A program made the translations under genes and the position numbers. A stretch of 62,444 nucleotides of DNA from a virus. The stretch is from positions 1 to 62,444 of IMG/VR virus record IMGVR_UViG_3300009702_000014; one strand, 5' to 3'. The notes under the pieces are model-generated. The model did not search any database, was not told where the DNA came from, and was given only the letters and a program-made list of their open reading frames with translations. The first letter of the stretch is position 1, and each line of letters opens with the position of its first letter. This document shows positions 5,312 to 61,999 of the stretch, in pieces.

Positions 5312-5341
5312 ATTATAAGTGAATTAGGCCGAATTATTCAA
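5312..5341 (-). promoter_or_regulatory. Promoter for the tail sub-operon
   Basis: On the minus strand there is TTGAAT, an 18-base spacer and a consensus TATAAT ending 9 nt before the ATG of the 205-residue tail protein. It overlaps the 3' end of the CCA-adding enzyme gene, so it could raise fibre expression relative to upstream genes. Confidence 0.55.
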
Positions 5342-7085
5342 GCATTTGCTTTATTTGCTCTACCGGCAATTTCATTATTTGGGCTTCGGTTAACCCCTGT
5401 TCGTTTGCTGAGGAGACAAGCTTCTCCTTGTCCTCGCGTGTAAGAGCAGCTAAGAAATTAAGCGTGGAATAAATGTCGCTGGTTTCGGGGTCGAGAAAGA
5501 TGCTTTTCAAATAGTCGATACCTTCCTCATAAGTATCAAAAGCCCCATCAATCTGAGCATTGAATAGAGTATTGATAAGCTGTCCGAAGTGAGGACCCCC
5601 TCGACTATATTCCGAAGGAATTTCTCCAGCCTTGGCAAGTTGAATTAAATCCTTACCGCCGATAAGGGGTGCAGGCTTATCCTCTTGTACTCGTAATTGA
5701 TGGGCCATTGCGACCATCTGCTGAGCGGCTTTCGGCATTCCTTTAGGAAGCGGCGGACGACCAGAATGGTCAGCTTCGATTACAAGACTAAGCATATCAA
5801 TATTAGCAGGAACAAGCCTTAATGCAAGGCGTCGAATGCTACGTGGATTTATGTCGTTTAGGTGTGCCATGTGTTCCTTTACCAATGGCAAAATACGCTC
5901 GATAATGTCTCTCGGAGCACCTATCGACTCTAGAAACTCCTCCGTCGGGACAACCCCTTCAACAGGATGGGCGGGAGCACGCCAGCGCCCCTCAATTACG
6001 GCGGTCATTGCTGGCTTTCCAAAATCGTGACAAAGGGAGGCTAGTAGCAGAACAGCCCTGTCCTTACCCTCCAAACCCTCACGATTTGCAATTTCAACAG
6101 CCGCATCCGTCACATGCAAGGTGTGATGCCACACATCTCCTTCGGGATGCCATTGGGGGTCTTGAGGAATTCCGATTAAATTGTTTAGCTGAGGAAATAA
6201 TTCGACCCATCCTGTTTCCCTCAGCACTGTTAGTCCTGCACTTGGCTTCGTGGATTTTGTAGCCCATTTGTAAAATTCCCCCCAAATACGTTCTACGGCA
6301 AGCGTTCTAAATTCTCTACGCAACTCGCTTGCTAATTGAGCAGTAGCAGGGTCAATCTTTAGATTAAATCTCCCTGCAAATTGAAAGCCTCTCAAAACCC
6401 GCAAAGGGTCTTCTGCGAATCTTTCAGAAGTATGCCGGAGGGTACCTTCCTTTAGATTCTTTACCCCTTCGTAAAAATCAAGCAATTCCCCCTGGGGAGT
6501 CATAGCCAGCGCATTAAAGGTAAAGTCTCTACGAGACGCCGCTTCCTTTGGAGTCATAGTGTGGTCGGGCTCAACAATAAATCCTCTGTGACCTTCACCT
6601 TGTTTGCTTTCTCGCCGGGGTAGAGTAAAATCATAGTCCTGGTTTGGAGTCGTCAGCTTTATAACACCAAAGCTGGCTCCAACAGTATCCACCTTTCCGA
6701 AATTCGAAAGAACCTGAGTTAGTGTAGAGGCATCAAGACCATAGATTTCTACGTCAATGTCCTTGCTGGAAGCCCCGTAGACTTTATCTCGGACAACTCC
6801 TCCCACGAAGAGAGGCTTTCCTCCAGCCTTCTGAATAGCATTTATAATACCATATAATTCCTGGTCTATCTGGATAGGGTCATATTGCGTCTGTAGATTA
6901 TCTTCTAGCTTGCGCAATTCCCATGAGTCAACCACACCATTCAAAACATCTTGAAAAGTGTAGGAACCCCCCGAATAGTCTCCCGGCTGTTTCACCGTTT
7001 GTCCTTTCGGGCCATTTATAACGAGTTCATAGCCTTTAGGGACTATGAACCCTTTAAACACAAAGCTATTCAATCTTTGAGCCAT
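5334..7085 (-). CDS. CCA-adding enzyme (class II tRNA nucleotidyltransferase) with HD domain
   Basis: This enzyme would add or repair the 3' CCA of tRNAs. Numbered from the ATG used here, residues 94-116 carry the class II signature GGVVRD followed by DIDVEIYG, with catalytic Asp 109 and 111. RRDFTFNALAM near 185 and EDPLRVLRGFQF near 225 are further conserved motifs, and an HD phosphohydrolase domain follows (HHTLHV, then LCHDFGKP near 351). About 85 extra N-terminal residues precede the catalytic core and begin with VFKGFIVPKGY, a motif shared with the adjacent 1065-residue protein. An upstream TTG at 7100 is possible, but the ATG aligns better with that shared motif. Location inside the structural operon is unusual for a tRNA enzyme. 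It could be packaged in the virion or simply expressed late. Confidence 0.93.
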   Translation of the reverse strand: MAQRLNSFVFKGFIVPKGYELVINGPKGQTVKQPGDYSGGSYTFQDVLNGVVDSWELRKLEDNLQTQYDPIQIDQELYGIINAIQKAGGKPLFVGGVVRDKVYGASSKDIDVEIYGLDASTLTQVLSNFGKVDTVGASFGVIKLTTPNQDYDFTLPRRESKQGEGHRGFIVEPDHTMTPKEAASRRDFTFNALAMTPQGELLDFYEGVKNLKEGTLRHTSERFAEDPLRVLRGFQFAGRFNLKIDPATAQLASELRREFRTLAVERIWGEFYKWATKSTKPSAGLTVLRETGWVELFPQLNNLIGIPQDPQWHPEGDVWHHTLHVTDAAVEIANREGLEGKDRAVLLLASLCHDFGKPAMTAVIEGRWRAPAHPVEGVVPTEEFLESIGAPRDIIERILPLVKEHMAHLNDINPRSIRRLALRLVPANIDMLSLVIEADHSGRPPLPKGMPKAAQQMVAMAHQLRVQEDKPAPLIGGKDLIQLAKAGEIPSEYSRGGPHFGQLINTLFNAQIDGAFDTYEEGIDYLKSIFLDPETSDIYSTLNFLAALTREDKEKLVSSANEQGLTEAQIMKLPVEQIKQMLE

Positions 7086-7171
7086 CGTAATTACGTCCAA
7101 TCAAGGAGGCCAGCACACTTGGCATCTGTTTCGGTGGAGACACTCCTTCTAGGTAAGTTTTAGTATTAAGC

Positions 7172-7981
7172 CTATCCGTTAGCTTCTGCATTGTCTCCAT
7201 GAGCAGGTTGTCTAGACTTCTTACGGTCATGGGTTTCTTCATCTTTGCCCGCCTTATTTGTAAGTTTGCCTTCTAAATCCTGGCGTTCTAGAGCCTGGGC
7301 AAAACCGCCAGCAGCGGCAATAGCTTTAGCAATGTCAACCTTTAGATATACTCTGCCTTTTTTCATAACAATATTCGGATTTCCTTCAAGCAGATAGGTT
7401 GGTATTCCAGTAATATCCAGAGGGCTAACCATCTTCTCTATATCCATTGGAATACTTTTGATGGTGTCTTCATTATACTCTTTCCCTAGAATATAAGCTA
7501 CTGCTTTGGGCGCGAATGCTTCATATGCCTCTATAACTGGCGTATGGTCTAAGTACTGATATGTGTCGTCGTTGTCGATACCGCCTAAAAATGCGGAGGC
7601 CAAGAATTGAAACAGGAATAAGGATGCGGCAAAGGAGTCGGAGCGGAATAGAGCTATAAATGCCCAGTCGGCTTTCTTTTCTAAATCTGGAACATCAATC
7701 TTGACAGCATCGTAGGTATCAAATCCCCAGCTTGGATAATCCCCGTTATTAGCTATAATATTATCATATCTTTGCAGGGCACTCATAAAATCGAATGAAT
7801 AATCATATTGGAGTTGCTCTAGCTCCTCGATAAAGGGTGCGAAGTCATAATCGGCCTCCCCAAAGGCCCTCTTAACCTCCTCAAAAATGCGGAGCCCAAT
7901 AAAATCATCTTGTATATCGAGCCTCATTGCCTCAGCGGCTTGACGTTTGATATAGTCCACGGCCCGTAGGTTAATATTCAT
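7172..7981 (-). CDS. Conserved phage protein of unknown function, next to portal module
   Basis: A 269-residue mostly helical, acidic protein with no recognised motif. A hydrophobic stretch near residues 110-130 (DSFAASLFLFQFLASAF) could be a buried helix. The C-terminal 40 residues are charged and probably disordered. Its ATG overlaps the stop of the 1065-residue gene (TAATG), implying translational coupling. Position after the portal and a giant protein suggests a head-morphogenesis or scaffold-like role, but nothing in the sequence proves it. Confidence 0.78.
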   Translation of the reverse strand: MNINLRAVDYIKRQAAEAMRLDIQDDFIGLRIFEEVKRAFGEADYDFAPFIEELEQLQYDYSFDFMSALQRYDNIIANNGDYPSWGFDTYDAVKIDVPDLEKKADWAFIALFRSDSFAASLFLFQFLASAFLGGIDNDDTYQYLDHTPVIEAYEAFAPKAVAYILGKEYNEDTIKSIPMDIEKMVSPLDITGIPTYLLEGNPNIVMKKGRVYLKVDIAKAIAAAGGFAQALERQDLEGKLTNKAGKDEETHDRKKSRQPAHGDNAEANG

Positions 7982-10900
7982 TAGGCTCGACTCCCTTCTG
8001 TACGAAAGCCCCCGCTAAAGATATTGGCAAGCACCGGGTTAGTGCGCTGATTCACCGTCGATGTGTCTATTTGCCCCGTTTGTGTGTGGTTAATATTTCT
8101 CATCTCCCTCATAGTGACTTTGGGCAATGCCCCTCCACGTCTAGCCTGAGCATACTTCATAGTTTCTCCTAGCTGACGGAAAAATGTAGATAGCCCCGCT
8201 TGGTGTGCATAGGCCAATCCTTCTTCCATCTTAGCCTCATAGGGCGTTACCTCAATAGTACCATAATCCGATGAGATTTTTGTGTGGGAGTAATCAACCG
8301 CATCCCCTGTTTGTCCCTCGGGGCTGCCAAAAAGATGGATGCTCCCATCCTTATCTTGCCAGGTAAAGCCCTCCATCCCATAAAGACCATTTATATCTTT
8401 GCCTTTTTCCGGGTCAAAAGGCAATCCTTCCTTAGGTGAGATACGACGGAAGGTTCCCTCTGCTGGGGAAGAAGTCTCTAGATGTGACATAAGTGGTCCA
8501 AGCTGTGTTAGAAATTCAAACCTTTGGCCGAATTGTGCTCCCTGCTTTCTTGGTATGCAGAAAGACTCTGCCTTACTCTTTAATTCATTACTATAGTGGT
8601 CTAAAAGTGTCTGTTTTACATCCTCAGCCATTTGGGAGGTTGTTAATGAGTTTTCAAAGGAAGAGTGAAACTCTTGCACGAGGGCATCAATTTGAGGTTG
8701 TGCTTCTTTTTGGGTTTGATTCGTAATATCCACCAATCGTGCAATCATGTTATTGGGCCCGCTGCCAAGGATTTTATCTGCATGACCGCGAATTGTATCC
8801 AAGTTGTTAGGCTCACTAGAGATATAGGGAGACGAGGAGATATCAGCTTCGTTTACTTCGTCTTTCGTAAACATCATCGTATCCCCACGACTATCCGCAG
8901 GAATATGACCAAGGGTACGAACAAGCGAGTTACGAAGCTGCTGACTATAACTCATTTGTCCCCCATTCAGAGTATGAGTCAGTAGCACGTCTGATATGAC
9001 TTCTTTATCCTGTAGTTTGGAAATATCCTCACCATGATAACCCGCTGCATCTAATAGCGCTCTGGCTTGGTGGTCTTCCCACTTAATATCTCCATTGGCC
9101 ACCTGATAGGGAACGCCCCGGAACATAGCAGGAAGCATCATGCTTAGCACTCTTTCTCGGTAGCGACCGCTCTCCAAGGTGCCAATGGAAGCATTAGGGA
9201 TTGTCTCTTGTAGGAAATGGCTACTAAAATCACTAAAGATTGCATAATTAGCATCCTCTGGAGAGGATGGTGCGCTTAACATGTGGTGGGAAAGTGTTGA
9301 AACAGTATATGTCGTGAATGCGAGATTAGCTGTAGAAGATAGGGTATAGGCGTGTTTTTCAATCACCTTATTTTCTACAATAGCGTTTCGTATAGAGCGG
9401 GCACCCTCTTCTAGATTATGTTCATTATAGCTGAGAATCAATCCCTCGGAAAGGGCACTATTGACAGCATCATGTACGCTAGTGCTTACATTATGTGAGA
9501 GATGTCCACGGTTGCTAGCAGTATTTTTCAAAGTTAGACTCTCGGTAATAGAAGCAGCTATGTGGTCGTATACATCTTCCTTTTTTACGCCAGGAGCAAG
9601 ACGCATTTCTAACGTATTCATCATACCGGCGAATTTTTCATTGCCCTCGCGTGGGCCAAGGAAGTGGCGAATGTCAGATAACATACCAGTATTACGCTTT
9701 GGCAACATCCCTTTATCTCTACCCACTAAGTCTCTGTAAATGGCTTGTAAGCGTGCTACTCCCCCTTGCCGAGGGATTAAAATATAATTTCCAAACAATT
9801 CCCCTAGCTGGTTTGGTTGTAAGTTCATCGAAGCAGCGGTCGGTGTAGCACCTAACTCTTTTTGCTCTGTACCACCCTCATCCACTGCAAAAGTGAAATG
9901 TCTATCCAAGAAAGCGCGGATTCTGGCCTTGTCCTTCACGAGTTGGAACAGACCTTCGACGAAATACTGTCCTCGACGGTCGCGTGTGGCCGTAGGAACA
10001 GCTTCCTGAACCTTTCCAAAATTCGATGTAATATCTTCCTCCGTGCTAGAGGAGTCTTTTTCGCCGGTCAGAATCGCGTCCATTTGGCTCTTATGGTTTT
10101 TAACAAGCTCACGAAAGTCTTTAAGAGCCATAGTTGCAGCTTGTTCCTCTGCCTGCCCTGTACTCTTCTTCATATATTGCTTGAGGTATGTAGCGGTGGC
10201 AAGAGACAAATCGAAAGAGTCATTGAATTCCTTATTTTCTAAAGTGCGACCCATAGCGAAAGTCAATCCCTCGGTGAAGACCTGGCGCTGATTTTCTGGT
10301 ACGTCAGAAAGAAAAGGAAAGAGTGAGTTGAAGGGGATAGGCTGTGTAGTCTTTACTCCACCAGAGATAACTTTTTTCAGCCTCGCTAAGTTACCCTCGG
10401 GGATGCCTAACCCAACAAGTGCAGCGTAAAGGGAGCGTCCATCAACGGTGTGGGGCCCTTCTTTCTTCTTCGTAAAGTTGACTTTGAAGTCCATGTCCCC
10501 CTTCCAGTCATTATATGAAACAAAGACAGTGGAAGAGTCGGGGTTGGAATCAAGGGTCTGAGAAATACGAGAGATTTCTACTTGGCTAAGAGTCTGAGTC
10601 ACTTTTTCTACGGACTCTTCTCTCGCACGGCTATTTAAAGCTGTGAGTATCTGTTCGATTTGAGTACCAAATTGTTCCTTTTGCTCAGGAGGCAAAAACT
10701 GTTGCGCATCTTCTCCGTAGCCTTGAATAACCTGAGCATCCCTCTCGTAGTCAGTATTCTCTACAGCGTGGTCAAATTCAGCTTGTACAGAATCCATAAG
10801 GGCCTGTGCTGCTTGCCCGTCTACTTGCTGAGTCTCATCAGGCATTTCAGCCTCTTGTGTCTCCTCGATGCGCCACCCTTTTTGCTGGCCTTCCTCAGAG

Positions 10901-11178
10901 ACATACTGCTCAAAGGATTGCCAATCAGGATGATTGGCCCCCGGAATAATCTGACCACCCACATACACGTGCCCTGCGGGGCTTGTTACACGAAATCCAG
11001 GCTCTACTCGAACACTTTTAATCGTGTAAAGCAGGAGTGTAGCATCGTCAGAGAGACCCAATTTACGTAGATATTGTTCCGCGTCAAATGGGTCCATTGC
11101 ACCCGAAGCATACCCTTGTGGTACTGTGATACCTTTAAAAACAGTGAGTTTATAGTTAGAGTCCAAGAATCTCACCAA
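7981..11178 (-). CDS. Large virion-associated protein of unknown function (1065 aa)
   Basis: The gene begins inside the last codons of the portal gene (23-base overlap) and is among the largest in the window. The first 25 residues contain VFKGITVPQGY, closely matching the N-terminus of the CCA-adding enzyme two genes on. Residues about 25-100 may form a small beta domain (GFRVTSPAGHVYVGGQIIPG). A Gln/Glu-rich helical segment follows, and the remainder is mixed. No catalytic motif was recognised. It could be a minor head or portal-associated protein, or an injected internal protein. Confidence 0.85.
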   Translation of the reverse strand: MVRFLDSNYKLTVFKGITVPQGYASGAMDPFDAEQYLRKLGLSDDATLLLYTIKSVRVEPGFRVTSPAGHVYVGGQIIPGANHPDWQSFEQYVSEEGQQKGWRIEETQEAEMPDETQQVDGQAAQALMDSVQAEFDHAVENTDYERDAQVIQGYGEDAQQFLPPEQKEQFGTQIEQILTALNSRAREESVEKVTQTLSQVEISRISQTLDSNPDSSTVFVSYNDWKGDMDFKVNFTKKKEGPHTVDGRSLYAALVGLGIPEGNLARLKKVISGGVKTTQPIPFNSLFPFLSDVPENQRQVFTEGLTFAMGRTLENKEFNDSFDLSLATATYLKQYMKKSTGQAEEQAATMALKDFRELVKNHKSQMDAILTGEKDSSSTEEDITSNFGKVQEAVPTATRDRRGQYFVEGLFQLVKDKARIRAFLDRHFTFAVDEGGTEQKELGATPTAASMNLQPNQLGELFGNYILIPRQGGVARLQAIYRDLVGRDKGMLPKRNTGMLSDIRHFLGPREGNEKFAGMMNTLEMRLAPGVKKEDVYDHIAASITESLTLKNTASNRGHLSHNVSTSVHDAVNSALSEGLILSYNEHNLEEGARSIRNAIVENKVIEKHAYTLSSTANLAFTTYTVSTLSHHMLSAPSSPEDANYAIFSDFSSHFLQETIPNASIGTLESGRYRERVLSMMLPAMFRGVPYQVANGDIKWEDHQARALLDAAGYHGEDISKLQDKEVISDVLLTHTLNGGQMSYSQQLRNSLVRTLGHIPADSRGDTMMFTKDEVNEADISSSPYISSEPNNLDTIRGHADKILGSGPNNMIARLVDITNQTQKEAQPQIDALVQEFHSSFENSLTTSQMAEDVKQTLLDHYSNELKSKAESFCIPRKQGAQFGQRFEFLTQLGPLMSHLETSSPAEGTFRRISPKEGLPFDPEKGKDINGLYGMEGFTWQDKDGSIHLFGSPEGQTGDAVDYSHTKISSDYGTIEVTPYEAKMEEGLAYAHQAGLSTFFRQLGETMKYAQARRGGALPKVTMREMRNINHTQTGQIDTSTVNQRTNPVLANIFSGGFRTEGSRA

Positions 11179-12946
11179 CTTGCTCTATTTGTGCATCTGT
11201 TAATTCTGTTGGCTTGAATTTATAAAAGTCCTCATAAAGAGCTTCACGCAGAGTCGGGTCTAGGCTCTTGTAAATAGCACGTTCTACACTTTCTAGTACG
11301 TGCTCCTCGCCGCCAACGGCAGCGATGCTCTGCTTTGTGCCCTCGTCCATGTTGTCAATAGCGGCTTTGGACATATTACGAATGAGCGGAGCGTCTCCAT
11401 CCTCACTCACAGTAACGATACCATTACCATCATAGCGTGAGAATTTAAACGGGTCTCTATCCTCTTCCTCGGAGACTACAGACTTTTGTATCATAATCCC
11501 TAATGAGGGATGTGAATTAATAAAGTAGTCATAGGATTCTTCTGGACTACGTAGCCATTCTCCGCCGGGGTAATTATGGATATCATGTAATTCTAGGAAG
11601 TCACCAAAATTAGATGAAGCATCATACATCTCTGTAAAACCTTTAATCATCAATTCTTCGGCTTCTTCTTCGGTTGCTGCGTGCATGGAGAAGAATTGGC
11701 TAGACTTTAGATTGGTCGGAGAACCAATAGGGCTCGCTCCACCAGGAGGTTGTGGAGGGCCACCAGCCCCAGGGTTCTCTCCTCCCACTGCACCATTAGG
11801 ATTAGCGGCCAGCCCACCACCCCCAATCTGAGGTAGTGGTGGTAGTCCACCAGGGAGTCCACCTTCATTTTTATCTTCGGGTTCCCAATTCCTGAGTCCT
11901 TGTAGTGGCGTATTTCCCCAAGGAACCGGGTGCTGCCCTTGTGACGCACGATATTGGTTGACGCTGAGCGCACCGCTAACAAGTTTCTGCTGAGCGATAG
12001 TCCATTCAGCCTTCTTTTTATCCAAGTCGTCGTCCTCAAACCACAGCATCAAATCTCGCTCTGGACGTAGCTCATTTATAATATGCTGAGTTACGTATTC
12101 AGAAATAGTACGCATCAGTGTTTCAAGTCCCTTGCTCTTGGTCATTTCGGCCTGAGTTTGAGACGTGGAACGATTAACGTCAGAAATAATACCTACATCT
12201 TGTGGTGAGACTTGGAATACAGCACAAATCTTACGAGTTAGATATTCAGCTAATTCCTTATACTGCATGTCACGACGACGGCCTTTGAAATCAATATAAG
12301 AAACTTTACCACCGGAAATAATAGGAACTTGAGTATAGTCCCCCATCATAATAGATTGCAGGTGACGCTGGAATGTTTCCAACGTCTCTTGGTTAATCTG
12401 AGACTGAGCAGAATCCTTACCACCGCTCATAGGCTCAACAGAAATAAAACCCTCTGGAATGGAACCACCCTTGCGATAGAAGTCTAGCTGCCCCTTGTCA
12501 ATAAAGATGTCAGCCAGGGAATCTGTGTAAAGGGTTTCCATGTTGGACAAACCATAACCGAAATACTTCATATCGGTCATAGGATTCATCTTCATGATAA
12601 CCATGTCCCGCCTTTTAAAATAAACCTGGGGAGAGCCGTGGACTACCTGTACATACGCTTTCTCATTGTCATATGTGCCATATTCATTAATCAATGGGCG
12701 AACTGTTGAGCCATCCATCGGCATAAGGCCCCGAATTCTTTCATTCTCATCCCGGACGAGTACGAATGTGCCCCTGTCGAGAATCAGCAAGTCCATGAGG
12801 ATGCTTTTTAGGAATTGTCCCCAAGAGCGGGTGTCTGTAAACCACGGGTCCGGGTCGTCAAGAATTTCTTTAATTTCTTTAATATCATTGGCCCGTTTTC
12901 TATAGAAGGCATCATGCTTCTCCTGTAAGTGCTCAACCGTAGCCAA
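11156..12946 (-). CDS. Portal protein, C-terminal frame
   Basis: This frame holds most of the portal: SWGQFLKSILMDLLILDRGT near the start, VIMKMNPMTD and YGLSNMETLYTD in the middle, and AVFQVSPQDVGIISDVNRS near residue 245. These phrases are typical of the portal ring that gates DNA packaging. The C-terminal third has a Pro/Gly-rich linker and a helical tail. The only nearby start is a TTG directly after an in-frame stop, and the true N-terminus lies in the overlapping frame to the right. The portal is therefore either frameshifted at about 12.8-12.95 kb or made as two chains. Confidence 0.88.
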   Translation of the reverse strand: MATVEHLQEKHDAFYRKRANDIKEIKEILDDPDPWFTDTRSWGQFLKSILMDLLILDRGTFVLVRDENERIRGLMPMDGSTVRPLINEYGTYDNEKAYVQVVHGSPQVYFKRRDMVIMKMNPMTDMKYFGYGLSNMETLYTDSLADIFIDKGQLDFYRKGGSIPEGFISVEPMSGGKDSAQSQINQETLETFQRHLQSIMMGDYTQVPIISGGKVSYIDFKGRRRDMQYKELAEYLTRKICAVFQVSPQDVGIISDVNRSTSQTQAEMTKSKGLETLMRTISEYVTQHIINELRPERDLMLWFEDDDLDKKKAEWTIAQQKLVSGALSVNQYRASQGQHPVPWGNTPLQGLRNWEPEDKNEGGLPGGLPPLPQIGGGGLAANPNGAVGGENPGAGGPPQPPGGASPIGSPTNLKSSQFFSMHAATEEEAEELMIKGFTEMYDASSNFGDFLELHDIHNYPGGEWLRSPEESYDYFINSHPSLGIMIQKSVVSEEEDRDPFKFSRYDGNGIVTVSEDGDAPLIRNMSKAAIDNMDEGTKQSIAAVGGEEHVLESVERAIYKSLDPTLREALYEDFYKFKPTELTDAQIEQVGEILGL

Positions 12947-13440
12947 TTAGCAGGTGTAAAGTCCTCTTTCTTTTCTTCAAAAAGTTCCTTTTTGTCTGCG
13001 ATGTATGATTTAGGGTCCAACTTTTCATAAATTTTTCGCAGAAAGGCAACTTCCGCAGCATCGAATGCCGGGTGGTCGTCCAAATCATATACACTATACT
13101 CTAAAATACTAATCTGACGCGGTGGCTCTTTATCATCCCTCGGCATAATCTTATATGGTAATTTAGCTACTTGGTGGGCTCTAAGGGTAAGAATAGCCCG
13201 AACGACAGTACTGTTATAGGCAAGAACCCTCTGAGTATTAAAGTTGATACGTCCTGGGTAGGGTTTACCACTAATATCATTCCTATAATACTCTGACGAA
13301 ATGTATACACCTTCATTACCAGTGATGTTGCTACCTTTTTGTCCAGTCCCGGCTATCTGAATGCGGCCCGCTGGAGTAGCTCGTTTGGCAAGTCGTGTAT
13401 TCACGATTAGTTTCTTACCCTTGATTTCTATTTCTGCCAT
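12808..13440 (-). CDS. Portal protein, N-terminal frame
   Basis: A 210-residue frame whose first 150 residues look like a portal N-terminus: RINFNTQRVLAYNSTVVRAI and LRAHQVAKLPYKIMPRD match the region before the portal wing. After FEEKKEDFTPA the portal-like sequence continues in the -1 frame (VEHLQEKHDAFYRKRANDIK), while this frame becomes unlike a portal and stops at 12808. The ATG has ATAGGAG upstream and a promoter near 13.48 kb, so this is the first gene of the late operon. Confidence 0.85.
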   Translation of the reverse strand: MAEIEIKGKKLIVNTRLAKRATPAGRIQIAGTGQKGSNITGNEGVYISSEYYRNDISGKPYPGRINFNTQRVLAYNSTVVRAILTLRAHQVAKLPYKIMPRDDKEPPRQISILEYSVYDLDDHPAFDAAEVAFLRKIYEKLDPKSYIADKKELFEEKKEDFTPANWLRLSTYRRSMMPSIENGPMILKKLKKFLTTRTRGLQTPALGDNS

Positions 13441-13566: not shown

Positions 13567-16428
13567 TTAAACGGGGCTAGAATGCAACTTTTGAATATTC
13601 TGCACTGCTTCGACTATATCGTGGTTTTCTTGGTGCCACTCCTCGGGCTGAGTTTTGATATAATTTTCCAAGAATACGAAGCAAGCATTAAAATCTTGGA
13701 CATTGATACCATGTTTGAGCATGATAGCACCTACGCGAGGCTCCAAAATCTTAGAATTAACTTCAAGCTTTCTTTCCTTAAAGTCGTATTCGTGGCTGTA
13801 TACAGAATAAGGCAAACCTGTAACCTTGCAATACCTCTTTTCTTTGTGCCCAACGTCGATATCTACAGGGGCAACCATTCCGGGGAAAATCTTCTCAGCC
13901 GCCGCTTCCATAATCTCCTTGATTCGAGCAATCGTCTCGTCCGCGTGGTCCTTGTAAATCTCAAAGATTACAGAATCGTGAACTGTAAGAACAATGTAGC
14001 CGTAGCCTGTTTCTTTTAGGTAAGCGAGAAGGTCCACCATAGCTTGCTTTGTGACATTCGCAGACATGGACTGAATCTTGTGGTTTTGTGCCTGTCTAGC
14101 TGCGCCGCCCTGTAAACGCCGGTGCTCTTCTTCTCCTACCTCTTCTTCGGAAGGAATCTCGTACCAACGGATACGTCCAAATGGGTCTTGTGTGTAGCCG
14201 CGTGTAAGCGCCTCGGCCACAGAGCGTTTTAGGAATTTATTTACATCAGGGTATTGCCCCAGGAACCCATCAATCATATCTTGTCCCTGGTCAGCATTTT
14301 CTGCAAAACCTCTGTTCACAAGGCCAACTGCGGAAATGCCATATGGAATCAGCTTATCCAATATTGCTATTGGGCTAGACTATACCTTTATTGAATAGTT
14401 TTATTCAATACCTGCCGTATTATGCTTTCGCATCCAGCTTCACCCATATCTTTTGACGTAGGGCAGCGTGAGTCGTTGAACCATTTGGAAGCCTTTCGGC
14501 TAACTCTGGCTGCTGATTGCCCATGTAGGGTTTCCAGCAATTGAGCAGGTTTTATTTCGGCTATTCTATTAACCGAAAGATACTCCTTTTGACATTCGCC
14601 TCAGTTCTTCACCACTGAGGCTTTTCCCATCTACACTGAACACCCCTTTTCTGAAGGCATCCTCTGGAAGCTTGAAAATATTCTTGGCATTTTCCCAGTG
14701 TACATCTTGTGAGTTAACTGCCTTGATGAAATTCTTATCCCCCGAGGCATACGCTAGAATACGAGATTCCACGGAAGAATAGTCAGCAAAGACAAGAATT
14801 TTGTCATCCTCGGTGGTGAGGAAACTCTTTAACATGTCAGGAGGGATATTTTGTAGGTTAGGTTTGCGGGAAGAGTTGTGTACACATATTTTATTTGCAA
14901 TGAAATTGTGAGTCTCTTCTACCTCTATGTCATAGACATCGACAACTTCGCCTGGGTACTCAACAGAAGTAATTCTGTGGTTATATGGAGTTTCATCATA
15001 GAACCATTCCTGAATATCTCTGACTACTCGGCCAGCATTTATATCTCCAGATAAAGCTAATACCCTGTCATTAGGCTTAAGGTCTTTAGCTTCTTTGTAC
15101 GTACCGTCTACTAAGCGTATCTTATGGTCTGCTGTCACTTTTAGTGAGCCGGTGTGCTTATTACCTTGACCAGTCCAGTTTACCTCGACTACTTCTTTGT
15201 GGCCTGTTTTTCCTGCCCAAGTGACGGGTTTAACAACAAGATTCAAAGAATCGTCGTATGAGTAAACTAAATCACCCGGTCTAATATCCTCAATTGGAAC
15301 ACCTTTAGGGGATACATCTCTAATAGACTCCACAAGGGAGCCTTTAGCTACACAAAACCGTCCGGTTGCTGTTTCAGCTTGAATTAGCAAGGAGTGAATT
15401 CTTCCATCGGGCCAAATCAAATCAATGTACCCTTTACCATAAGTAGAAGAAATCTTAGAGGCTTCTTTATAGTCCAGAAGTTTAGGCACAAGAGGGTGGT
15501 CGATGGTACGCAACACCTGTTCATCTGCCTTCTCTAGCCCAAAAAAGTCAGCAATCTGCTTTGGAGAGCTAACTTTAAATGCCTTGGGAACAAAGGTATT
15601 AAACAGGGAAATGACTCCTTCTCTTTGAGCTAATTCCTTACCAAAGCTCTGATTTAATACCCCTTCTAACAAAGCGGCCTTGTTACCATATTCCCCAGCC
15701 GCGTCACTCCAAGCGCTCTTGTTAATTTTTACTCCTCGATACTTCATTTCGGCGGCCGCAAAGATAACATCCATTTCTAGCTCAATAACCTTCTCTAGCC
15801 CGAATCGTTTCACAAACTTCCATTGATTACGGGCAATCTCAATCATGTAGCGAACATCGTCTCTGGCGTACCTAATCTGCTCCTCAGAGAGCGGTCGGTG
15901 GGCCCAATCCGAAGTCCCCTGGTCTTTCTGGATAATTGCTTTATTCGCATAGCGGTATACTGTGGCTTGCAATGAGTGAGAGAACTTGCGATTATGTTTT
16001 GTGTTGAATTCTAAGTTGTCGTCCTTTTCTTCCAAAAGCGGCTCCCATTGCCCTAGGTGCTCCATGCTCTTGGCAGAGACTTTACCAGAAATGCGAGTTG
16101 CTTCATCTGGCTGCCTCTTACCAGCATTAAGAACCTGAGAGGCAACCATCGTACACCAAACTTTCTTAAATTGTAGGTCCGTCTTGATGTTGAACCAATC
16201 CAATTCGAATACCGCTTGATGAATTAGAAAGCGATAGTCTTCATCAATCAGGCGTTGTAGCAAATCATGGGTTTCTTCGTTCCAGTCATGTAATTCAATA
16301 GTTCCATCTTCGTAGGCCAATTGCACGAGTGCAATCTGTGCCTCGGGGTTGCGAGGCTCAAGTGTGCCTCGACCATAGCCATCTGTCGTTTCAATATCTA
16401 ATGCTACAAGCTTTTCATTATCAATCAT
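13567..16428 (-). CDS. DNA polymerase I-like (family A) polymerase with intein, split by a group I intron
   Basis: The replicative polymerase is encoded in two exons, 16428-14572 and 14349-13567. Exon 1 opens with a DEDDy proofreading exonuclease: LDIETTDG (Exo I, residue 10), LIHQAVFELDWF (Exo II), RYARDDVRYM (Exo III). The polymerase domain has TGRF/SSRKPNLQNIP, motif A ADYSSVESR near 548 and motif B RRMSKGVSFG, which is completed by IPYGISAVGL in exon 2. Motif C TVHDSVIFE is in exon 2. The intein occupies residues 359-518 between TGRF and SSRK. After RNA and protein splicing the enzyme would be about 720 residues, a normal length. Its ATG overlaps the stop of the upstream 118-residue gene. 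Confidence 0.95.
14350..14571 (-). ncRNA. Group I intron in the polymerase gene, ORF-less
   Basis: The 222-nt interruption has group I hallmarks. The upstream exon ends UUCGGU, which pairs with GCCGAA a few bases into the intron, leaving a U-G pair at the 5' splice site. The core has AACGACUC and the late partner GGUAUAGUCUA, as in P7. The intron ends in G just before AUUCCAUAUGG. Removing it joins SFG to IPYG and restores polymerase motif B exactly. There is no endonuclease ORF, so it is probably not mobile by itself. Confidence 0.9.
14875..15354 (-). other. Mini-intein coding segment within polymerase
   Basis: The 160 residues run from Cys 359 (CVAKGSLVES, block A) to Asn 518. Block B is VTADHKIRL. 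Block F/G is VEETHNFIANKICVHN, ending His-Asn before a Ser +1. This is a complete set of splicing residues. Only about 60 residues separate blocks B and F, so there is no homing-endonuclease domain. The insertion point is in front of the PNLQNIP motif of the polymerase active site. Confidence 0.93.
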
Positions 16429-55230: not shown

Positions 55231-55374
55231 CTATTTAAGCGGCTTATCCTTGATATAGAGAAAGACCACGTATAGAACTGCCACAAATATTCCTATCTGT
55301 CCATATCCGGCAACAACAAAGCCTACCATCAGCAGAAACGTTACAATTGCAAGTATTTCTTCAAGTTGGGTCAT
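55231..55374 (-). CDS. Small two-helix membrane protein
   Basis: A 47-residue protein (LEEILAIVTFLLMVGFVVA, GIFVAVLYVVFLYI). Its ATG overlaps the stop of the upstream secreted protein (ATGA), so I reject the longer frame starting at 55473. Confidence 0.68.
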   Translation of the reverse strand: MTQLEEILAIVTFLLMVGFVVAGYGQIGIFVAVLYVVFLYIKDKPLK

Positions 55375-55856
55375 GGTATGTATCCTGGGAATAATTGAAA
55401 TCCACGCGCAGAGGACACGCGAAAAACAGGGTAATTTTGTTGAGTTGTTGGGGGCATCCATGCGTTTGTCCACGGCAGCCTGTCGGCATTCTTATTGTTT
55501 TGCCATTCATAAGGTTCAAAAGCATTTCCGTTACTAACCACATAAGCTATCCAAAACCAAGGCCCTAGATAAAGGCTTTGCCGATAATGGTGTAATTCAT
55601 GCGCCTGCACTTCAAGCGAATTTGTAGGCACGGACGAAAGTCCACGAATATCGTTGGTGGCATAAACTTCCGGGTCATACAATGTAATTAATGGAAAAGT
55701 GGTTGCAGAAGCTCCCCACAGGCGATGTGTAGGAAAGGGCATCCAAATCTGAGGACTAGCATCGAATTGCCACGAGCCCAAAGACCAAGACGCAGTGCCA
55801 CCAAGAGGGCTTGAAAAATGTAAAGTTAATGTAAGGGTAATCGCAAGCAAGCTCAT
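55371..55856 (-). CDS. Secreted protein with HELHH metal-binding motif, leaderless
   Basis: A 161-residue protein. A short hydrophobic start (LLAITLTLTLHFSSPL) suggests export. QAHELHHYRQSLYLGPWFW near residue 85 has His-Glu-x-x-His, followed by a Trp-rich tail. It may be a zinc-dependent hydrolase of the cell surface; the family is unclear. A CATAGT box lies six bases before the ATG. Confidence 0.65.
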   Translation of the reverse strand: MSLLAITLTLTLHFSSPLGGTASWSLGSWQFDASPQIWMPFPTHRLWGASATTFPLITLYDPEVYATNDIRGLSSVPTNSLEVQAHELHHYRQSLYLGPWFWIAYVVSNGNAFEPYEWQNNKNADRLPWTNAWMPPTTQQNYPVFRVSSARGFQLFPGYIP

Positions 55857-55890
55857 ATCCCTACTATGACAGGGAGATAGATTAGAAATA

Positions 55891-56904
55891 TTAGTTGAAT
55901 TCCTCGCCTGTCTCTTTATACTTTTTGTTTAGGATTTTTACCATCAGCCGCGTACCATCCGAAGCAAGCCTGTCCGGGGAGGGGCGTATAACGATTCCCT
56001 CGTTAATGTGTAATCCCTGACCACTGACCCGTTCCGTACCATCGGCAAGCCGTTTTAGGTTGACGTCTTTTAATGGCCCGGTATAGTAAAGCGGCGCCCA
56101 ATACTCAAAAATTGCATCAGGGATATCTCCGAGGCTAAGACTCTCACCATTTACACGCACATCAAAAAACAACACAGTAAGCTTTTGCTGACCATACTTA
56201 AATCCCTTTTGCAGAGGAATTACTTCACCAAAGAGTTGCACATCGTCCTCTGGCAAAAATTCATCGAACATGTCAAAGGCCCCCACATTGCGGCCAGCAG
56301 TCCAGTAAGCATTTGACGCAGACTCTTCTAGTACCATATCCCGACTCAGCAGCCCTTTCGACGTAACAAATATCTCACCCGCAGCCGTGCGGCCATAAAT
56401 AACCTGGCTACCGTGAATTTTCTCACTGATATTGACGCGCTCGTCCTCCGAGAATTCATGGCGGTAAATACCAAATTGCTCTACGTCATGTTGTGTGAAT
56501 CGACCCTCCGGCAACTTTTTGACTTGGCCCAAAAGGGACTGTGGGATAGGAGGCTCATACTTATGGATATTAAGCCTCTCGCTCACGTCCTCACCATAAG
56601 GGACATCAGCCAATTCGGGGAAGAATTTATCCGAGGGAGAGACAGCCCCCATCGACAACTCTCCACGTAGGCGAATTTCTCGCACGCGGTCCTTATGCGG
56701 ACCACCAAGATATTCCTTCCACGGTGCTTGCAATTCCTCAGGCAACACAGACTTGGCCGGGATAAAAATTACATCTTCCCCGCCTTCGTAAATACCTTTC
56801 TGCACCACGACCTGAAACTGCCCTACCTTACCCAGCATCAGCTTGTCGGCATTCGGGTGGGGGAATAATTCAATTTTGTCTTTAAACACTTTCCACTGTG
56901 CCAT
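55891..56904 (-). CDS. RNA ligase (DRB0094/Rnl5 type)
   Basis: A 337-residue ATP-dependent RNA ligase. The N-terminal 110 residues form an OB-like domain (HPNADKLMLGKVGQFQVVVQ, IPAKSVLPEEL). The nucleotidyl-transferase domain has motif I EKIHGS with catalytic Lys 162, motif IIIa-like LFGEVIPL, motif IV EGIVIRP and motif V LMVKILNKKYKE. The domain order matches Deinococcus RNA ligase. With the tRNA array, CCA-adding enzyme and a cREC protein, tRNA repair after anticodon cleavage is the likely task, though not proven. Confidence 0.9.
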   Translation of the reverse strand: MAQWKVFKDKIELFPHPNADKLMLGKVGQFQVVVQKGIYEGGEDVIFIPAKSVLPEELQAPWKEYLGGPHKDRVREIRLRGELSMGAVSPSDKFFPELADVPYGEDVSERLNIHKYEPPIPQSLLGQVKKLPEGRFTQHDVEQFGIYRHEFSEDERVNISEKIHGSQVIYGRTAAGEIFVTSKGLLSRDMVLEESASNAYWTAGRNVGAFDMFDEFLPEDDVQLFGEVIPLQKGFKYGQQKLTVLFFDVRVNGESLSLGDIPDAIFEYWAPLYYTGPLKDVNLKRLADGTERVSGQGLHINEGIVIRPSPDRLASDGTRLMVKILNKKYKETGEEFN

Positions 56905-56926
56905 GATATTACTCTACTCTTTCTGA

Positions 56927-57193
56927 CTATGAGAATGCTGAAAACGCATTAACCTCTTCTTTGTCGTTCAACTCTCTCACATGCAGACCTATAAATGGGT
57001 TTTCGTCATGTCCTATTGCATAGGTATGATATCCACGTGGGTAGTGCTTTTTGAACGTCTTAATACTACGTCCGCGAGCCTTATTTTTACTCGGAGCCTC
57101 GACCATCACTACATCTATACAAAATTCGGGAGGTTCATAATAACTTTTTCCGGGCAATTTATATAAGGGTGTAGTTACTAACCATTTTCTCAT
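56927..57193 (-). CDS. Hypothetical protein
   Basis: An 88-residue protein (MRKWLVTTPLYKLPGKSYYE, GYHTYAIGHDENPFIG) of unknown function. The ATG behind GAAAGGAG, which overlaps the stop of the RNase H gene, is preferred over a farther in-frame codon. Confidence 0.7.
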   Translation of the reverse strand: MRKWLVTTPLYKLPGKSYYEPPEFCIDVVMVEAPSKNKARGRSIKTFKKHYPRGYHTYAIGHDENPFIGLHVRELNDKEEVNAFSAFS

Positions 57194-57585
57194 AACACTC
57201 GACTCCTTTCGTCGGCCCGAGAATTCTCGTGCCGAGGTACCCACCGGAGCGTATAATTCGGCATCAAATTCAGCAGCCTCTTAGCTTCTGCATGGAGAGG
57301 CTTCAAATGCTTCGCACGGCACCTGAAACGCCCTTCAAGCTGATAAATAATTAACTGCGAGTCTCCTATGATTTCAATATCACTGATACCCAAGTCGATA
57401 GCCTTTTTCAAACCTGCAATCAATCCATAATATTCAGCAACATTGTTAGTTTGTTCTAATTCCCTGGGAATATAATCTGTATTTTCAGCAAAGATAGAGG
57501 ACTCAAGCACATAGCCATAACTGGCGAGACGCCCCTTATGCGGGCTAGAAGAACCGTCAAAATACAGTTTTGCCTTCATTTTCAC
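57190..57585 (-). CDS. RNase HI-like protein
   Basis: A 131-residue RNase H fold. KLYFDGSSSPHKG provides the first catalytic Asp, LEQTNNVAEYYGLI the Glu, IEIIGDSQLIIYQLEG the second Asp, and HENSRADERS the last Asp. All four carboxylates are in place, so it should degrade RNA in RNA-DNA hybrids, for example lagging-strand primers. Confidence 0.9.
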   Translation of the reverse strand: MKMKAKLYFDGSSSPHKGRLASYGYVLESSIFAENTDYIPRELEQTNNVAEYYGLIAGLKKAIDLGISDIEIIGDSQLIIYQLEGRFRCRAKHLKPLHAEAKRLLNLMPNYTLRWVPRHENSRADERSRVL

Positions 57586-57729
57586 CCCACCCTTTCAACC
57601 TATGATAGCAGTTTTCAATATTAGAATAATGAGTGCCTGGTGCGCTTTGGAGTCCCCTCTATTTTATTTCATAAGGTAAAGGCTCATAGGCATCTTCTTA
57701 CAAAAAGAAAAATCCCCTGAGCCTTTCAG

Positions 57730-57765
57730 TGGTGGTAACGGTAGGAATCGAACCTACATGTATCC
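57730..57765 (-). tRNA. 3' half of a tRNA (probable pseudo-tRNA)
   Basis: A T-arm GTAGG/CCTAC with loop TTCGATT, acceptor strand CGTTACC, discriminator A and CCA are present, but no anticodon arm can be folded upstream; the DNA there codes for the end of the next protein. GGTAGCG at 57803-57809 could pair with the acceptor strand. Confidence 0.5.
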
Positions 57766-57767
57766 AA

Positions 57768-58118
57768 TTACTCTTTCAAGTCTTTAGGAGAGACAGGAGA
57801 TACGCTACCACGTCGTTTCCGCAAATCATATCCTAGCTTATCTGCCCAAGCCTTAAGAATTTCCTCGTCTGTGTAGTAACCAAACAATTTAAAGGCTTGA
57901 TGCCCTGTATTCTGTCCTACAATAATAACTTGGGTTTCATCCGCATGTCCAACACCAACACATTGGAGGCCGTGGTCATAATAATTAGGATAAGTGTGGT
58001 TTGGATTAGGCCAACCTTTTTCTGTAATAGCCCGCCAAATTTCCTTTCCCACACTCTTATCTTCCTCAATTTCATGCAGCCTGTCATTAAGCACAACCAT
58101 CACACTATTAAATCCCAT
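57768..58118 (-). CDS. Hypothetical protein
   Basis: A 116-residue protein (ITEKGWPNPNHTYPNYYDHG, ETQVIIVGQNTGHQAFKLFG) of unknown function. The C-terminal region ends next to the tRNA fragment, so its last codons may overlap former tRNA sequence. Confidence 0.73.
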   Translation of the reverse strand: MGFNSVMVVLNDRLHEIEEDKSVGKEIWRAITEKGWPNPNHTYPNYYDHGLQCVGVGHADETQVIIVGQNTGHQAFKLFGYYTDEEILKAWADKLGYDLRKRRGSVSPVSPKDLKE

Positions 58119-58134
58119 TTTATCTCCCTTGTTT

Positions 58135-58209
58135 TGGTGGCCCCTGTAGGAATCGAACCCACGTCCCTGCGTTCGAAGCGCAGAATCCTGTCCGTTGAAC
58201 GAAGGAGCC
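58135..58209 (-). tRNA. tRNA-Arg (UCG)
   Basis: Acceptor GGCTCCT/AGGGGCC with one G-U pair, anticodon stem CTGCG/CGCAG with loop CTTCGAA, encoded CCA. Confidence 0.95.
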
Positions 58210-58211
58210 TA

Positions 58212-58511
58212 TCAAGAAAATGTATCGAGTAATGCATCGCGTACATCATCAGGAGTAATTTCAACGATGTGCCGTCGGTTGTTTTGAGCATTAAACGCTA
58301 GTTTCACCCCAAGAATGGTTGAAAAAGCATTCCCTTCCTCAAAGTCGAGTCCTTCACTCCAAACATTCTCCCACTCTTCCTCAACGAGATTATCAATTTC
58401 CCCGGCAGAGATAGACTGTCGGTAGAGAGGAGCATCATACCCGAACATCGCATCTTGGATTGTTTCTCGTGCATTATCGCGTTCTGAAAGGACATAAACA
58501 GTAGAAAGCAT
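58212..58511 (-). CDS. Hypothetical protein
   Basis: A 99-residue acidic alpha/beta protein (MLSTVYVLSERDNARETIQD, AFNAQNNRRHIVEITPDDVR) of unknown function, two bases before tRNA-Arg. Confidence 0.73.
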   Translation of the reverse strand: MLSTVYVLSERDNARETIQDAMFGYDAPLYRQSISAGEIDNLVEEEWENVWSEGLDFEEGNAFSTILGVKLAFNAQNNRRHIVEITPDDVRDALLDTFS

Positions 58512-58721
58512 GGTTTCTCCCCTCTCTTAAACTGTACAACTAGAGATAATGAGAAAGATGTGACAGTTTGATTCGGCACTGCCAAGCCAAAGGGTATGAT
58601 TCGCTTCACCTGCGTCTGAGGTATTTAGTACACGCGCCTTAACGTCGTGTTTCTCACTGACTGTACCGGGTAGCTAATCCGTCTTTAGTCTTTTTCAGTA
58701 GGGCGAGTGATTCACCCCATT

Positions 58722-58798
58722 TGGAGTCCCGTGCAGGATTCGAACCCGCGATTCCTGAGTTAGAAGCTCAGAGCCTTAGTCCACTAGACGAACGGGAC
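58722..58798 (-). tRNA. tRNA-Arg (UCU)
   Basis: Acceptor GTCCCGT/ACGGGAC is perfect, anticodon stem CTGAG/CTCAG with loop CTTCTAA, discriminator U, encoded CCA. Confidence 0.95.
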
Positions 58799-58923
58799 AT
58801 GCCTGGAAAGCATTTGATAACGGAGGGCCTTCCTCGCCCTCTTCGGTCCCCGAGTGCTTACGTGATATCCCGCTTGCCCTCGGTTGAGGACTGACTAGAG
58901 TCTATACACTAGGTTTATGAGAA

Positions 58924-59011
58924 TGGTGGCAGCGATAGGATTCGAACCTACAAAGTCGTTATGACAAACAAAGTCTCAGCCTGTCCCGTATGCCAATTCC
59001 ACCATCTGAGC
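58924..59011 (-). tRNA. tRNA-Leu (GAG) with unpaired acceptor stem
   Basis: The D-arm GGTGGAATTGG, anticodon loop CTGAGAC, variable arm GTC/GAC and T-arm are Leu-like, and a CCA is encoded. The 5' strand GCTCAGA cannot pair with 3' CGCTGCC, so the gene is decayed, chimeric or mis-bounded. Confidence 0.65.
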
Positions 59012-59158
59012 AAAAAGCCTGACTTTCACAGTCGCAGAAATAGCCTACTGCTACAGGTACGGGAGTCTTACTGTTCGGTGCTTGGCGTGCAAAATAGCAC
59101 GCTCCCTGGGTTTTCTTATCCCGTCATTTACGGCGCTCCACCAAAGGCCGTGACTTCT

Positions 59159-59232
59159 TGGATGCGGGGCAGGAGTCGAACCTGCCTTTCGTGGATATGA
59201 ACCACGCATAGTCGCCGGACTATTTCTCCGCA
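59159..59232 (-). tRNA. tRNA with CAU anticodon (Met or Ile2), copy 1
   Basis: Acceptor TGCGGAG/CCCCGCA with one A-C mismatch, anticodon stem CGTGG/CCACG, loop TTCATAT, encoded CCA. Confidence 0.85.
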
Positions 59233-59236
59233 ATAG

Positions 59237-59315
59237 TGGTTGCAGGGGTTGGAATCGAACCAACAACGACGTGCTTATGAGACACGTAAGGCGAACCAAT
59301 AGCCTTCTCCCTGCC
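59237..59315 (-). tRNA. tRNA with CAU anticodon, copy 2
   Basis: Acceptor GGCAGGG/CCCTGCA has a G-A opposition at 1-72, which recalls the unpaired first position of initiator tRNAs. Anticodon loop CTCATAA, encoded CCA. Confidence 0.82.
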
Positions 59316-59348
59316 ATAAAATTGTAACCTAGAGAAACATGAGGAGGG

Positions 59349-59425
59349 TGAGTGCGCGGGATTTGAACCCGCAAACGACTGTTAGTTGGACAGTTTGATA
59401 ACCATTATCGGAGTAACCCTATCTC
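59349..59425 (-). tRNA. tRNA-like locus, anticodon uncertain, acceptor unpaired, no CCA
   Basis: The T-arm GCGGG/CCCGC with TTCAAAT is good, and an ACTGT/ACAGT stem has loop CCAACTA (AAC if standard, but with C at position 33). The acceptor strands do not pair and no CCA follows. Either degenerate or incorrectly bounded. Confidence 0.5.
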
Positions 59426-59441
59426 CTGGCTGCTAGGCTTT

Positions 59442-59513
59442 TGGTACCGTGGAAGGGAAACGAACCCTTATGCTGTCGCTTATGAGACGAAGCCCTCACC
59501 TTGAGTCCACGGC
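59442..59513 (-). tRNA. tRNA with CAU anticodon, copy 3
   Basis: Acceptor GCCGTGG/CCACGGT with a G-U first pair, loop CTCATAA in a 4-bp stem, only 72 nt long, encoded CCA. The three CAU tRNAs could be elongator Met, initiator Met and Ile2. Confidence 0.78.
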
Positions 59514-59666
59514 ATAAATGCGGGTTTTTCTGCGGCCCCGCACCGCAGCCCTGTCGTCACGCAGGGACTTACAATCCTCAACGCCACGTTCCAGTTTGGA
59601 CTTTCACCGTGTCGGACGCTATTTATCGGTAGAATTTGAAGCCATTAACCGAGCGAATGAGGAATA

Positions 59667-59741
59667 TGGTAGGCCCGCTCGGACTTGAACCGAGAACTTC
59701 CACTTTGTAGGAGTGGCACTCTGCCTTTGAGTTACGGGCCT
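59667..59741 (-). tRNA. tRNA-Val (UAC), with C at position 33
   Basis: Acceptor AGGCCCG/CGGGCCT is perfect; stem CCACT/AGTGG closes loop CCTACAA. Position 33, nearly always U, is C. CCA is encoded. Confidence 0.85.
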
Positions 59742-59882
59742 GAGCAGGGGGTTTTTCTAAGGGAACCCCTTAACCCTGCGGAAATCTGAGGTATTGCCCT
59801 AAGCCGCATTCCGCTGTAAGCTTCCGGGCCCCCTGTAAAAATTATTATGGAGGACTTTTGTACGTCGGAGCCTCCTTCCGAC

Positions 59883-59957
59883 TGGTACGCCCACCAGGAT
59901 TCGAACCTGGATTAGCTGGATATAAGCCAGATGCTCTTACCGTTGAACTATGGGCGC
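59883..59957 (-). tRNA. tRNA-Ile (UAU)
   Basis: Acceptor GCGCCCA/TGGGCGT with a G-U first pair, loop CTTATAT, encoded CCA. It would read the AUA codon. Confidence 0.9.
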
Positions 59958-59968
59958 ACAAATGGTGT

Positions 59969-60047
59969 GCTTAGGATAGGCGTGCTGTGACGCCTCGTTT
60001 TACGTCTGGTTCCAATTCGCACACGTGCCGGATTGGTTCTCCTAAGC
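59969..60047. ncRNA. Candidate structured RNA between tRNA genes
   Basis: A perfect 8-bp outer stem GCTTAGGA/TCCTAAGC encloses a perfect AGGCGT/ACGCCT hairpin and a CCAAT/ATTGG hairpin, a three-way-junction shape. It does not match a tRNA. It may be a separate small RNA or a processing signal; which strand is transcribed is unknown, minus is likely. Confidence 0.45.
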
Positions 60048-60068
60048 CTGATTACTAGCCACCCTTTG

Positions 60069-60332
60069 CTAGATTATAATATTATCTAACGCTGGTCTTA
60101 ATGAAGTATCAGAAATCATAGCATCGAGAAATCTTTCTGCTTCGTTGATTTCTTCGCTCTCAAGGGTCACAAAAGGTGTAGCTGCTTCACGATGAATCCC
60201 TACATGAGTAATTCCAAAATAACCAGTGTCTAAGATGGGTTCCTTTCCTGTGAGCATACCATCATTCTTTCGATTCGTCAAGTATTCAACCAAGTCGTCG
60301 ACCGTAAAAATAAGCATATCTTCGGCGTCCAT
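60069..60332 (-). CDS. Hypothetical protein
   Basis: An 87-residue acidic protein (MLIFTVDDLVEYLTNRKNDG, VTLESEEINEAERFLDAMI) of unknown function. AAAGGAAGG precedes the ATG. Confidence 0.72.
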   Translation of the reverse strand: MDAEDMLIFTVDDLVEYLTNRKNDGMLTGKEPILDTGYFGITHVGIHREAATPFVTLESEEINEAERFLDAMISDTSLRPALDNIII

Positions 60333-60361
60333 AGCATCCTTCCTTTCATAGTCATATCTTA

Positions 60362-60835
60362 TCAGAAAGAAAGTGAGAAGGATGAGACTGTTTTCTCAGC
60401 CTCTTTTACTCTATTTTCAACCTCAGGAATATGTGGATAATGCCCACGTTGCTGATAGACCCAATAAAGCAAACCGTAATATCCAAACCTCCTTACAAGG
60501 TTAAAAACTTCGTCATATTTTTCTGTAGGAATTTCTTCTTTATCTGAGGAAGAATAATACCATGTGTCACTTAGATTAACATACCATTTATCATCCATAT
60601 GAAGAAACATATCTTCATATAATAGAAACATTGTTTCGGCCCTAGAAATTTCTAATTCGGCTTTGCGAAGAATTTCCCATAGAGCTTGGTAAACTTCTCT
60701 GCTTCCATCGTTCCAGCCCTTTTTGTAATCATCCCTTTCCTCATAATCAATTTCAGGATTACCCGTCTTTACAGCCTTAGGATAAATCCCAACATCAATT
60801 TGAAACAATTCATCTATGAGTTCCTGGTTTGTCAT
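60362..60835 (-). CDS. Hypothetical protein
   Basis: A 157-residue acidic, helical protein (MTNQELIDELFQIDVGIYPK, EILRKAELEISRAETMFLLY). No family is recognised. It lies between tRNA genes and probably shares their transcript. Confidence 0.73.
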   Translation of the reverse strand: MTNQELIDELFQIDVGIYPKAVKTGNPEIDYEERDDYKKGWNDGSREVYQALWEILRKAELEISRAETMFLLYEDMFLHMDDKWYVNLSDTWYYSSSDKEEIPTEKYDEVFNLVRRFGYYGLLYWVYQQRGHYPHIPEVENRVKEAEKTVSSFSLSF

Positions 60836-60855
60836 AAACAGCCTTTCACAAGACT

Positions 60856-60935: not shown

Positions 60936-60954
60936 GCGAAAAGCATTGCTTTGT

Positions 60955-61029: not shown

Positions 61030-61043
61030 ATGGGGTAGATACA

Positions 61044-61202: not shown

Positions 61203-61217
61203 AGCTAGACCTCTAGT

Positions 61218-61305: not shown

Positions 61306-61323
61306 CGCACCCGTTGCAAGTGA

Positions 61324-61997: not shown

Positions 61998-61999
61998 AT

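Follow-up and report, generated by a model that had tools for sequence, protein, structure and literature searches.

The window analysed here (62,444 nt, positions 1–62,444 of the 201,951 bp IMG/VR phage record IMGVR_UViG_3300009702_000014, G000) encodes a CCA-adding enzyme and a 1065-residue portal-adjacent protein with similar N-terminal sequences. Sequence comparisons support the presence of a common module on several unrelated proteins of the head/portal gene clusters in phiYS40-type phages, these two proteins being among the carriers. The module is 45–60 residues long (VPxGYxL..G...WxL) and precedes the catalytic part, or the bulk of the chain, in a small number of late proteins. A first strand, VPxGYx[LV], is followed by another strand, a stretch of variable sequence in which there is usually a short helix, and a final WxL strand, a predicted beta-beta-alpha-beta arrangement. 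Its likeliest role, at about even odds, is to dock late proteins into the prohead, in which case the CCA-adding enzyme would be carried for tRNA repair.

Conservation of the N-terminal motifs

An earlier note on this DNA had described one motif in both proteins, at the same distance from the N-terminus. VFKGFIVPKGY is present at residues 9–19 of the CCA-adding enzyme (numbered from the ATG at 7085) and VFKGITVPQGY at residues 13–23 of the 1065-residue protein (numbered from a TTG start), both on the minus strand, and these are the only two matches to the pattern in the whole record. The distances are roughly but not exactly equal, and the start codon of the larger protein is uncertain. By itself the match proves nothing, because its ungapped BLOSUM62 score of 45 is equalled or exceeded by 7 of 44,850 N-terminal pairs from 300 open reading frames (ORFs) of the same genome (likely paralogs and low-complexity pairs included); its weight comes from the conservation of both motifs in related phages. 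The 33 motif bases are identical at 25 positions, and over their initial 400 bases the genes have no 9-mer in common, so recent copying between them is not evident.

Related contigs were located through the portal gene, with portal identities to the window phage of 79% (L012), 62% (L013), 61% (L014) and 46–50% (phiYS40/TMA group). L012 and L013 both preserve the gene order portal, large protein, ~270-residue protein, CCA enzyme, fibre-like genes. The search of relatives proposed in the earlier note found both motifs retained, as LKGFRVPPGY and LKGFVVPSGY in the CCA enzymes of L012 and L013, and as FKGMTVPQGY, FKSMTVPSGY and YKGFVVPEEY in the large proteins of L012, L013 and L014, respectively; absence from all relatives, which the note had named as a refutation, was thus not observed. 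In the CCA extension the residues K, G, F, V, P, G and Y do not vary, nor do SGG, F, V and the closing W-x-L. The N-terminal 110 residues of the large protein share 39–40% identity with those of L013 and L014 and are much more conserved than the remainder, which gives only short, weaker matches. Profile–profile comparison of the two N-termini returned P 1.3e-5; the CCA extension matched the first copy of the module in the large protein with P 8e-7 and the second with P 4.5e-5. The string matched in the earlier note belongs to the first, a shorter upstream half-copy, while the full module is the second copy (residues 52–107) and occupies the most conserved part of the protein across four phages.

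Further carriers and homology tests

Extending the search to other late proteins added a helicase and giant proteins of the phiYS40 type. The helicase-like ORF (188769–192998, minus strand, of the same record but outside the window) has copies at residues 129–176 and 253–300, and its G002 counterpart likewise has two. Its phiYS40 homolog is the helicase YS40_079 (phmmer 1.3e-10), a protein with SNF2 and Helicase_C domains. When phiYS40 was searched with a profile built from the CCA, large-protein, helicase and phiYS40 gp2 copies, the best matches after gp2 were YS40_079 (5e-4), YS40_076 (1e-3 to 0.012) and YS40_077 (0.11), none of which had contributed to the profile. The matches in 076 and 077 fall at residues 17–71 of frames 1528 and 1747 residues long. 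A blastp search with phiYS40 gp2 finds the G002 helicase module (E 0.004).

Across five genomes (2,865 ORFs), the full profile gave E <1e-8 for members and E >1 for everything else (best reversed sequence E 2, best shuffled E 0.22); the member values are partly circular because members sit in the profile. For a non-circular test, whole families were left out and the 2,865 ORFs ranked. The best copy of the omitted family ranked first for the CCA enzyme (E 0.13), gp2 (7e-4), 076 (1.5e-5) and 077 (0.3), second for the large protein (E 2.5) and third for the helicase (E 3.3). The closing W-x-hydrophobic is found in every family although it lay outside the search pattern, with a chance of occurrence of ~10% per window of sequence. 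These profiles, together with three phiYS40-type genomes and the module-less controls, support the part of the earlier proposal that concerned a tag common to proteins of the head and portal clusters. Such a tag agrees with the way this CCA enzyme differs from its relatives, in both its N-terminal addition and the position of its gene in the structural cluster.

A genome-level search found four carriers each in phiYS40, TMA and G005 (one copy per protein in phiYS40 and TMA), three each in the window phage and in G002, and none in G004, G006 and G008; no other protein of the genomes searched has the module. The same four proteins carry it in phiYS40, TMA and G005, namely the neighbour of the portal, a pair of giant proteins and the helicase of the head cluster. 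In phiYS40, 076, 077 and 079 are grouped near 073, the major structural protein, and gp2 adjoins the portal. Downstream of the window-phage helicase, in the direction of transcription, follow a 1080-residue gene, a head maturation protease (phrog_32465) and an SU10-type major capsid protein. The module is N-terminal in the CCA enzyme, portal neighbour, 076 and 077, and begins at residue 129 or later in the helicases. Scans of the carriers with Pfam and PHROGs found no set of conflict-related catalytic domains in one chain.

Two candidate carriers were rejected. A G003 match, FVVKGAPVPVGGSLVVIGG, lies in a small protein whose gene is surrounded by fibre-like genes; it vanishes when the profile holds more module copies and was put down to chance. 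A vaguely similar stretch at residue 549 of the 1080-residue helicase neighbour (185301–188540) has no profile support. Separately, contigs L049 and L054, otherwise unrelated, have a 60-residue frame beginning MIFKGYVVPFGY, with MIFKGYVVPFGYMGLVEGHYILFATENEYVEYIRD near its N-terminus (similar motif at 5675 and 90). The helicase-like gene of G000 also contains a LAGLIDADG intein, seemingly interrupting the Walker A motif (GLGKG...TAVVTG).

AlphaFold2 models, built on only three or four sequences, had an overall predicted local distance difference test (pLDDT) score of 51.6 for the CCA enzyme and 47.2 for the large protein. The elements are predicted in the same order in both: E19–25, E28–32, H44–48 and E54–59 in the former, and E61–64, E70–72, H85–96 and E102–105 in the latter. 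Searches of PDB and Pfam with the module returned no credible relative; one PDB match obtained with a profile of three rows, 1k5c (E 0.0027), was set aside as unrelated.

The CCA-adding enzyme and the tRNA genes

Class II tRNA nucleotidyltransferases are recognised by the motifs GGxxRD, DxD, RRD, EDxxR and ERxxxE. The window protein has GGVVRD, KDIDVE, SRRDF, EDPLR and ERIWGE, and the best 26 Foldseek matches to its low-confidence model are tRNA nucleotidyltransferases (E down to 2.4e-6), the top ones being CCA/A-adding enzymes. By motifs, Pfam domains and fold it is a CCA-adding enzyme, and CCA addition is its predicted activity. About 85 residues in excess of need had been noted ahead of the catalytic core, and this agrees with the domain boundaries: the Pfam nucleotidyltransferase domain begins at residue 93, leaving 92 residues before it, against a median of 29 in 80 cellular relatives found among 84,980 species of bacteria and archaea. 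None of these 80 relatives, the best of which are ~36–54% identical, has the module.

The closest phage relative without the N-terminal extension starts near residue 71. No module was found in G008 (a 231 kb phage), its CCA enzyme included, and the CCA gene of that phage sits near an alanyl-tRNA synthetase gene and further metabolic genes. The 231 kb phage contig L024 encodes an extension-less CCA enzyme (7977–9365, 46% identical) near an alanyl-tRNA synthetase gene, and in phages GAP31 and Tunturi_5 the neighbours of the CCA gene are small genes annotated as hypothetical. L014 has a CCA homolog at the same locus (13626–14798) that has lost both module and catalytic head and retains the RNA-binding/HD part only. 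H22 (MT835871) was ruled out as a phage relative, since the contig is bacterial and its CCA gene chromosomal.

About 29 tRNA genes extend from window positions 50717–62233 on to ~66900 of G000. CCA is already encoded by 27 of the 29 (29/32 in G001, 31/31 in G002), which makes end repair a likelier role for the enzyme than tRNA maturation. The phages of L012 and L013 have 32 and 31 tRNA genes, respectively; phiYS40 has 3, and a Pfam search found no CCA gene in it.

The portal-adjacent protein and neighbouring genes

Coordinates of the features are collected in Table 1. The 1065-residue protein has no significant database relatives, and Foldseek against PDB gave nothing significant. The top viral Foldseek match (E 1.2e-4) has 881 residues, equal in length to phiYS40-type gp2; direct profile comparison of the 1065-residue and gp2 families was not significant. 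An invariant D-x-E-x-K type signature in the C-terminal part has no Pfam match, and phiYS40 gp2 carries a similar D..ELK. When the viral collection was searched directly, neither the 1065-residue protein nor the N-terminal piece of the portal had a match, and the C-terminal portal piece did. The portal gene, broken in the window, reads as one ORF in relatives; the break is either a natural frameshift or an assembly error. The DNA polymerase gene (13567–16428, minus strand) holds an intein (Pfam PF14890, residues 377–518 of ORF 14569–16428) and a group I intron (Rfam RF00028, 14357–14581, 75 bits).

Table 1. Features of the portal/CCA-enzyme region of the window.
Feature	Position (nt)	Strand	Evidence or remarks
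CCA-adding enzyme (tRNA nucleotidyltransferase), 583 aa from ATG	5334..7085	-	Pfam PF01743 1e-18, PF12627, HD domain; phrog_2244 4e-66
Nucleotidyltransferase core (PolyA_pol head domain)	6435..6809	-	GGxxRD, DxD, RRD
Module in CCA-adding enzyme, residues 7–62	6900..7067	-	Conserved in L012 and L013; 2e-11 in full profile (CCA copy included)
Motif VFKGFIVPKGY	7029..7061	-	Opens module of CCA-adding enzyme
269-aa protein, between 1065-aa protein and CCA-adding enzyme, function not assigned	7172..7981	-	Without module; orthologs at same place in L012, L013, L014
1065-aa portal-adjacent protein, positional counterpart of phiYS40 gp2	7981..11178	-	Gene order
D-x-E-x-K type signature, PD-(D/E)XK-like (weak)	8230..8295	-	Alignment
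Full module in 1065-aa protein, residues 52–107	10858..11025	-	Beta-beta-alpha-beta predicted, pLDDT ~64–76
Motif VFKGITVPQGY, upstream half-copy of module	11110..11142	-	1065-aa protein, residues 13–23
Portal gene, frame broken near 12947 (ORFs 11156–12946, 12808–13440)	11156..13440	-	Pfam PF04860, phrog_37955

Discussion

From the demonstrated homology and gene contexts we infer docking, packaging, delivery and repair as follows. The module would dock its carriers to a common prohead partner, which may be the portal, the scaffold or the inner capsid face, and the docked proteins would be built into the head and travel along with the DNA. In the window phage the module is fused to a CCA-adding enzyme of the usual bacterial type. 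Arriving in the host together with the phage DNA, this enzyme would mend tRNA 3' ends as soon as infection begins, within its first minutes. Cas12a3 is one example of a defence that trims tRNA tails (PMC12851939). It is put forward more tentatively that phiYS40-like phages load enzymes into the virion by a folded, reusable module, unlike the T4 type, and that this module recruited the CCA-adding enzyme so that repair of tRNA 3' ends is delivered before any tRNA-cleaving defence of the host halts translation.

Several observations weigh against head loading by a shared module. Packaging rests on gene neighbourhood; individual pairwise similarities of the copies are short, and confidence in the modelled structure of the module is low (pLDDT ~40–76). 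With the CCA family left out of the profile, only the G002 copy came first (E 0.13), the L012 copy being 12th and the window copy not recovered. Classical targeting sequences are N-terminal, whereas the copies in the helicase are internal, and L015 and L017, whose portals belong to the same group, show no module, both contigs being fragments.

The similarity might instead be a recurrent short strand-turn-strand pattern arising by chance, as could be argued from the unexceptional motif pair within one genome and from exact-motif DNA scans of the viral collection, which yielded mostly unrelated internal or non-coding matches. This is improbable, given the conservation in both families, the best leave-one-out ranks of 1, 1, 1, 1, 2 and 3 among 2,865 ORFs, the closing WxL that the search pattern did not contain and the rediscovery of the module in independent genomes. 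It is less easily dismissed, though still doubtful, that the module is a general-purpose domain for nucleic-acid binding or oligomerisation, acting inside the cell and unrelated to packaging. Its presence on a tRNA enzyme, a protein with a nuclease-like signature and a helicase, internal and doubled in the last, would suit such a role; however, the polymerase, DnaB, primase, DEAD helicase YS40_027 and terminase are not among the profile matches, and two head-cluster giant proteins of no assigned function also carry it. The earlier note had also suggested a cleavage tag, and in this form the N-terminal stretch would be a propeptide removed by the head maturation protease, the gene for which lies near the helicase; long propeptides are borne by head proteins of giant phages (PMC5694885). 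A cleavage tag is not supported, because the helicase copies are internal as well as doubled, and the conserved part has the look of a folded module more than that of a processing site (no systematic search for cleavage sites was made); a propeptide is highly improbable.

If the module does load heads, the signal would be readable directly from sequence, unlike that of the P1 Dar proteins (PMC9024508), the virion cargo of the whole phage group would become predictable and the module could be used as a cargo-loading tag. A virion CCA-adding enzyme would be a ready-made answer to tRNA-tail-cutting defences such as Cas12a3 (PMC12851939), and would explain why the phage keeps the enzyme beside its portal even though CCA is already encoded in its tRNA genes.

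Compared with known systems, the window enzyme shares the nucleotidyltransferase head, RNA-binding and HD domains of class II CCA-adding enzymes, but has ~70–90 additional N-terminal residues bearing the module, and its gene lies between portal and tail-fibre-like genes. Phage polyvalent proteins (PMC5512222) are alike in late-gene location and proposed delivery with the DNA, whereas no MuF, peptidase, ART or LPD domains were found here and the CCA enzyme has a single activity plus the module. The capsid targeting sequence of T4 (internal proteins, Alt; PMC5694885, PMC9024508) is likewise an element shared by otherwise differing proteins, N-terminal in T4, with a proposed role in prohead entry. 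T4 sequences have 10–20 residues and are cut off, while the module has 45–60, is probably folded and sometimes internal, is predicted to bring its carriers into heads, and gave no evidence of cleavage, for which sites were not systematically searched. Long propeptides are known in SPN3US (PMC5694885). The T4, P1 and SPN3US systems are cited as parallels, with no claim of membership for a module recognised here from sequence and gene context. P1 DarB is a large late protein with a 30-residue N-terminal packaging signal, and the P1 portal and prohead protease are neighbouring ORFs (PMC9024508). The authors of that study found no consensus among the Dar N-termini (PMC9024508), whereas the carriers described here have a recognisable common sequence.
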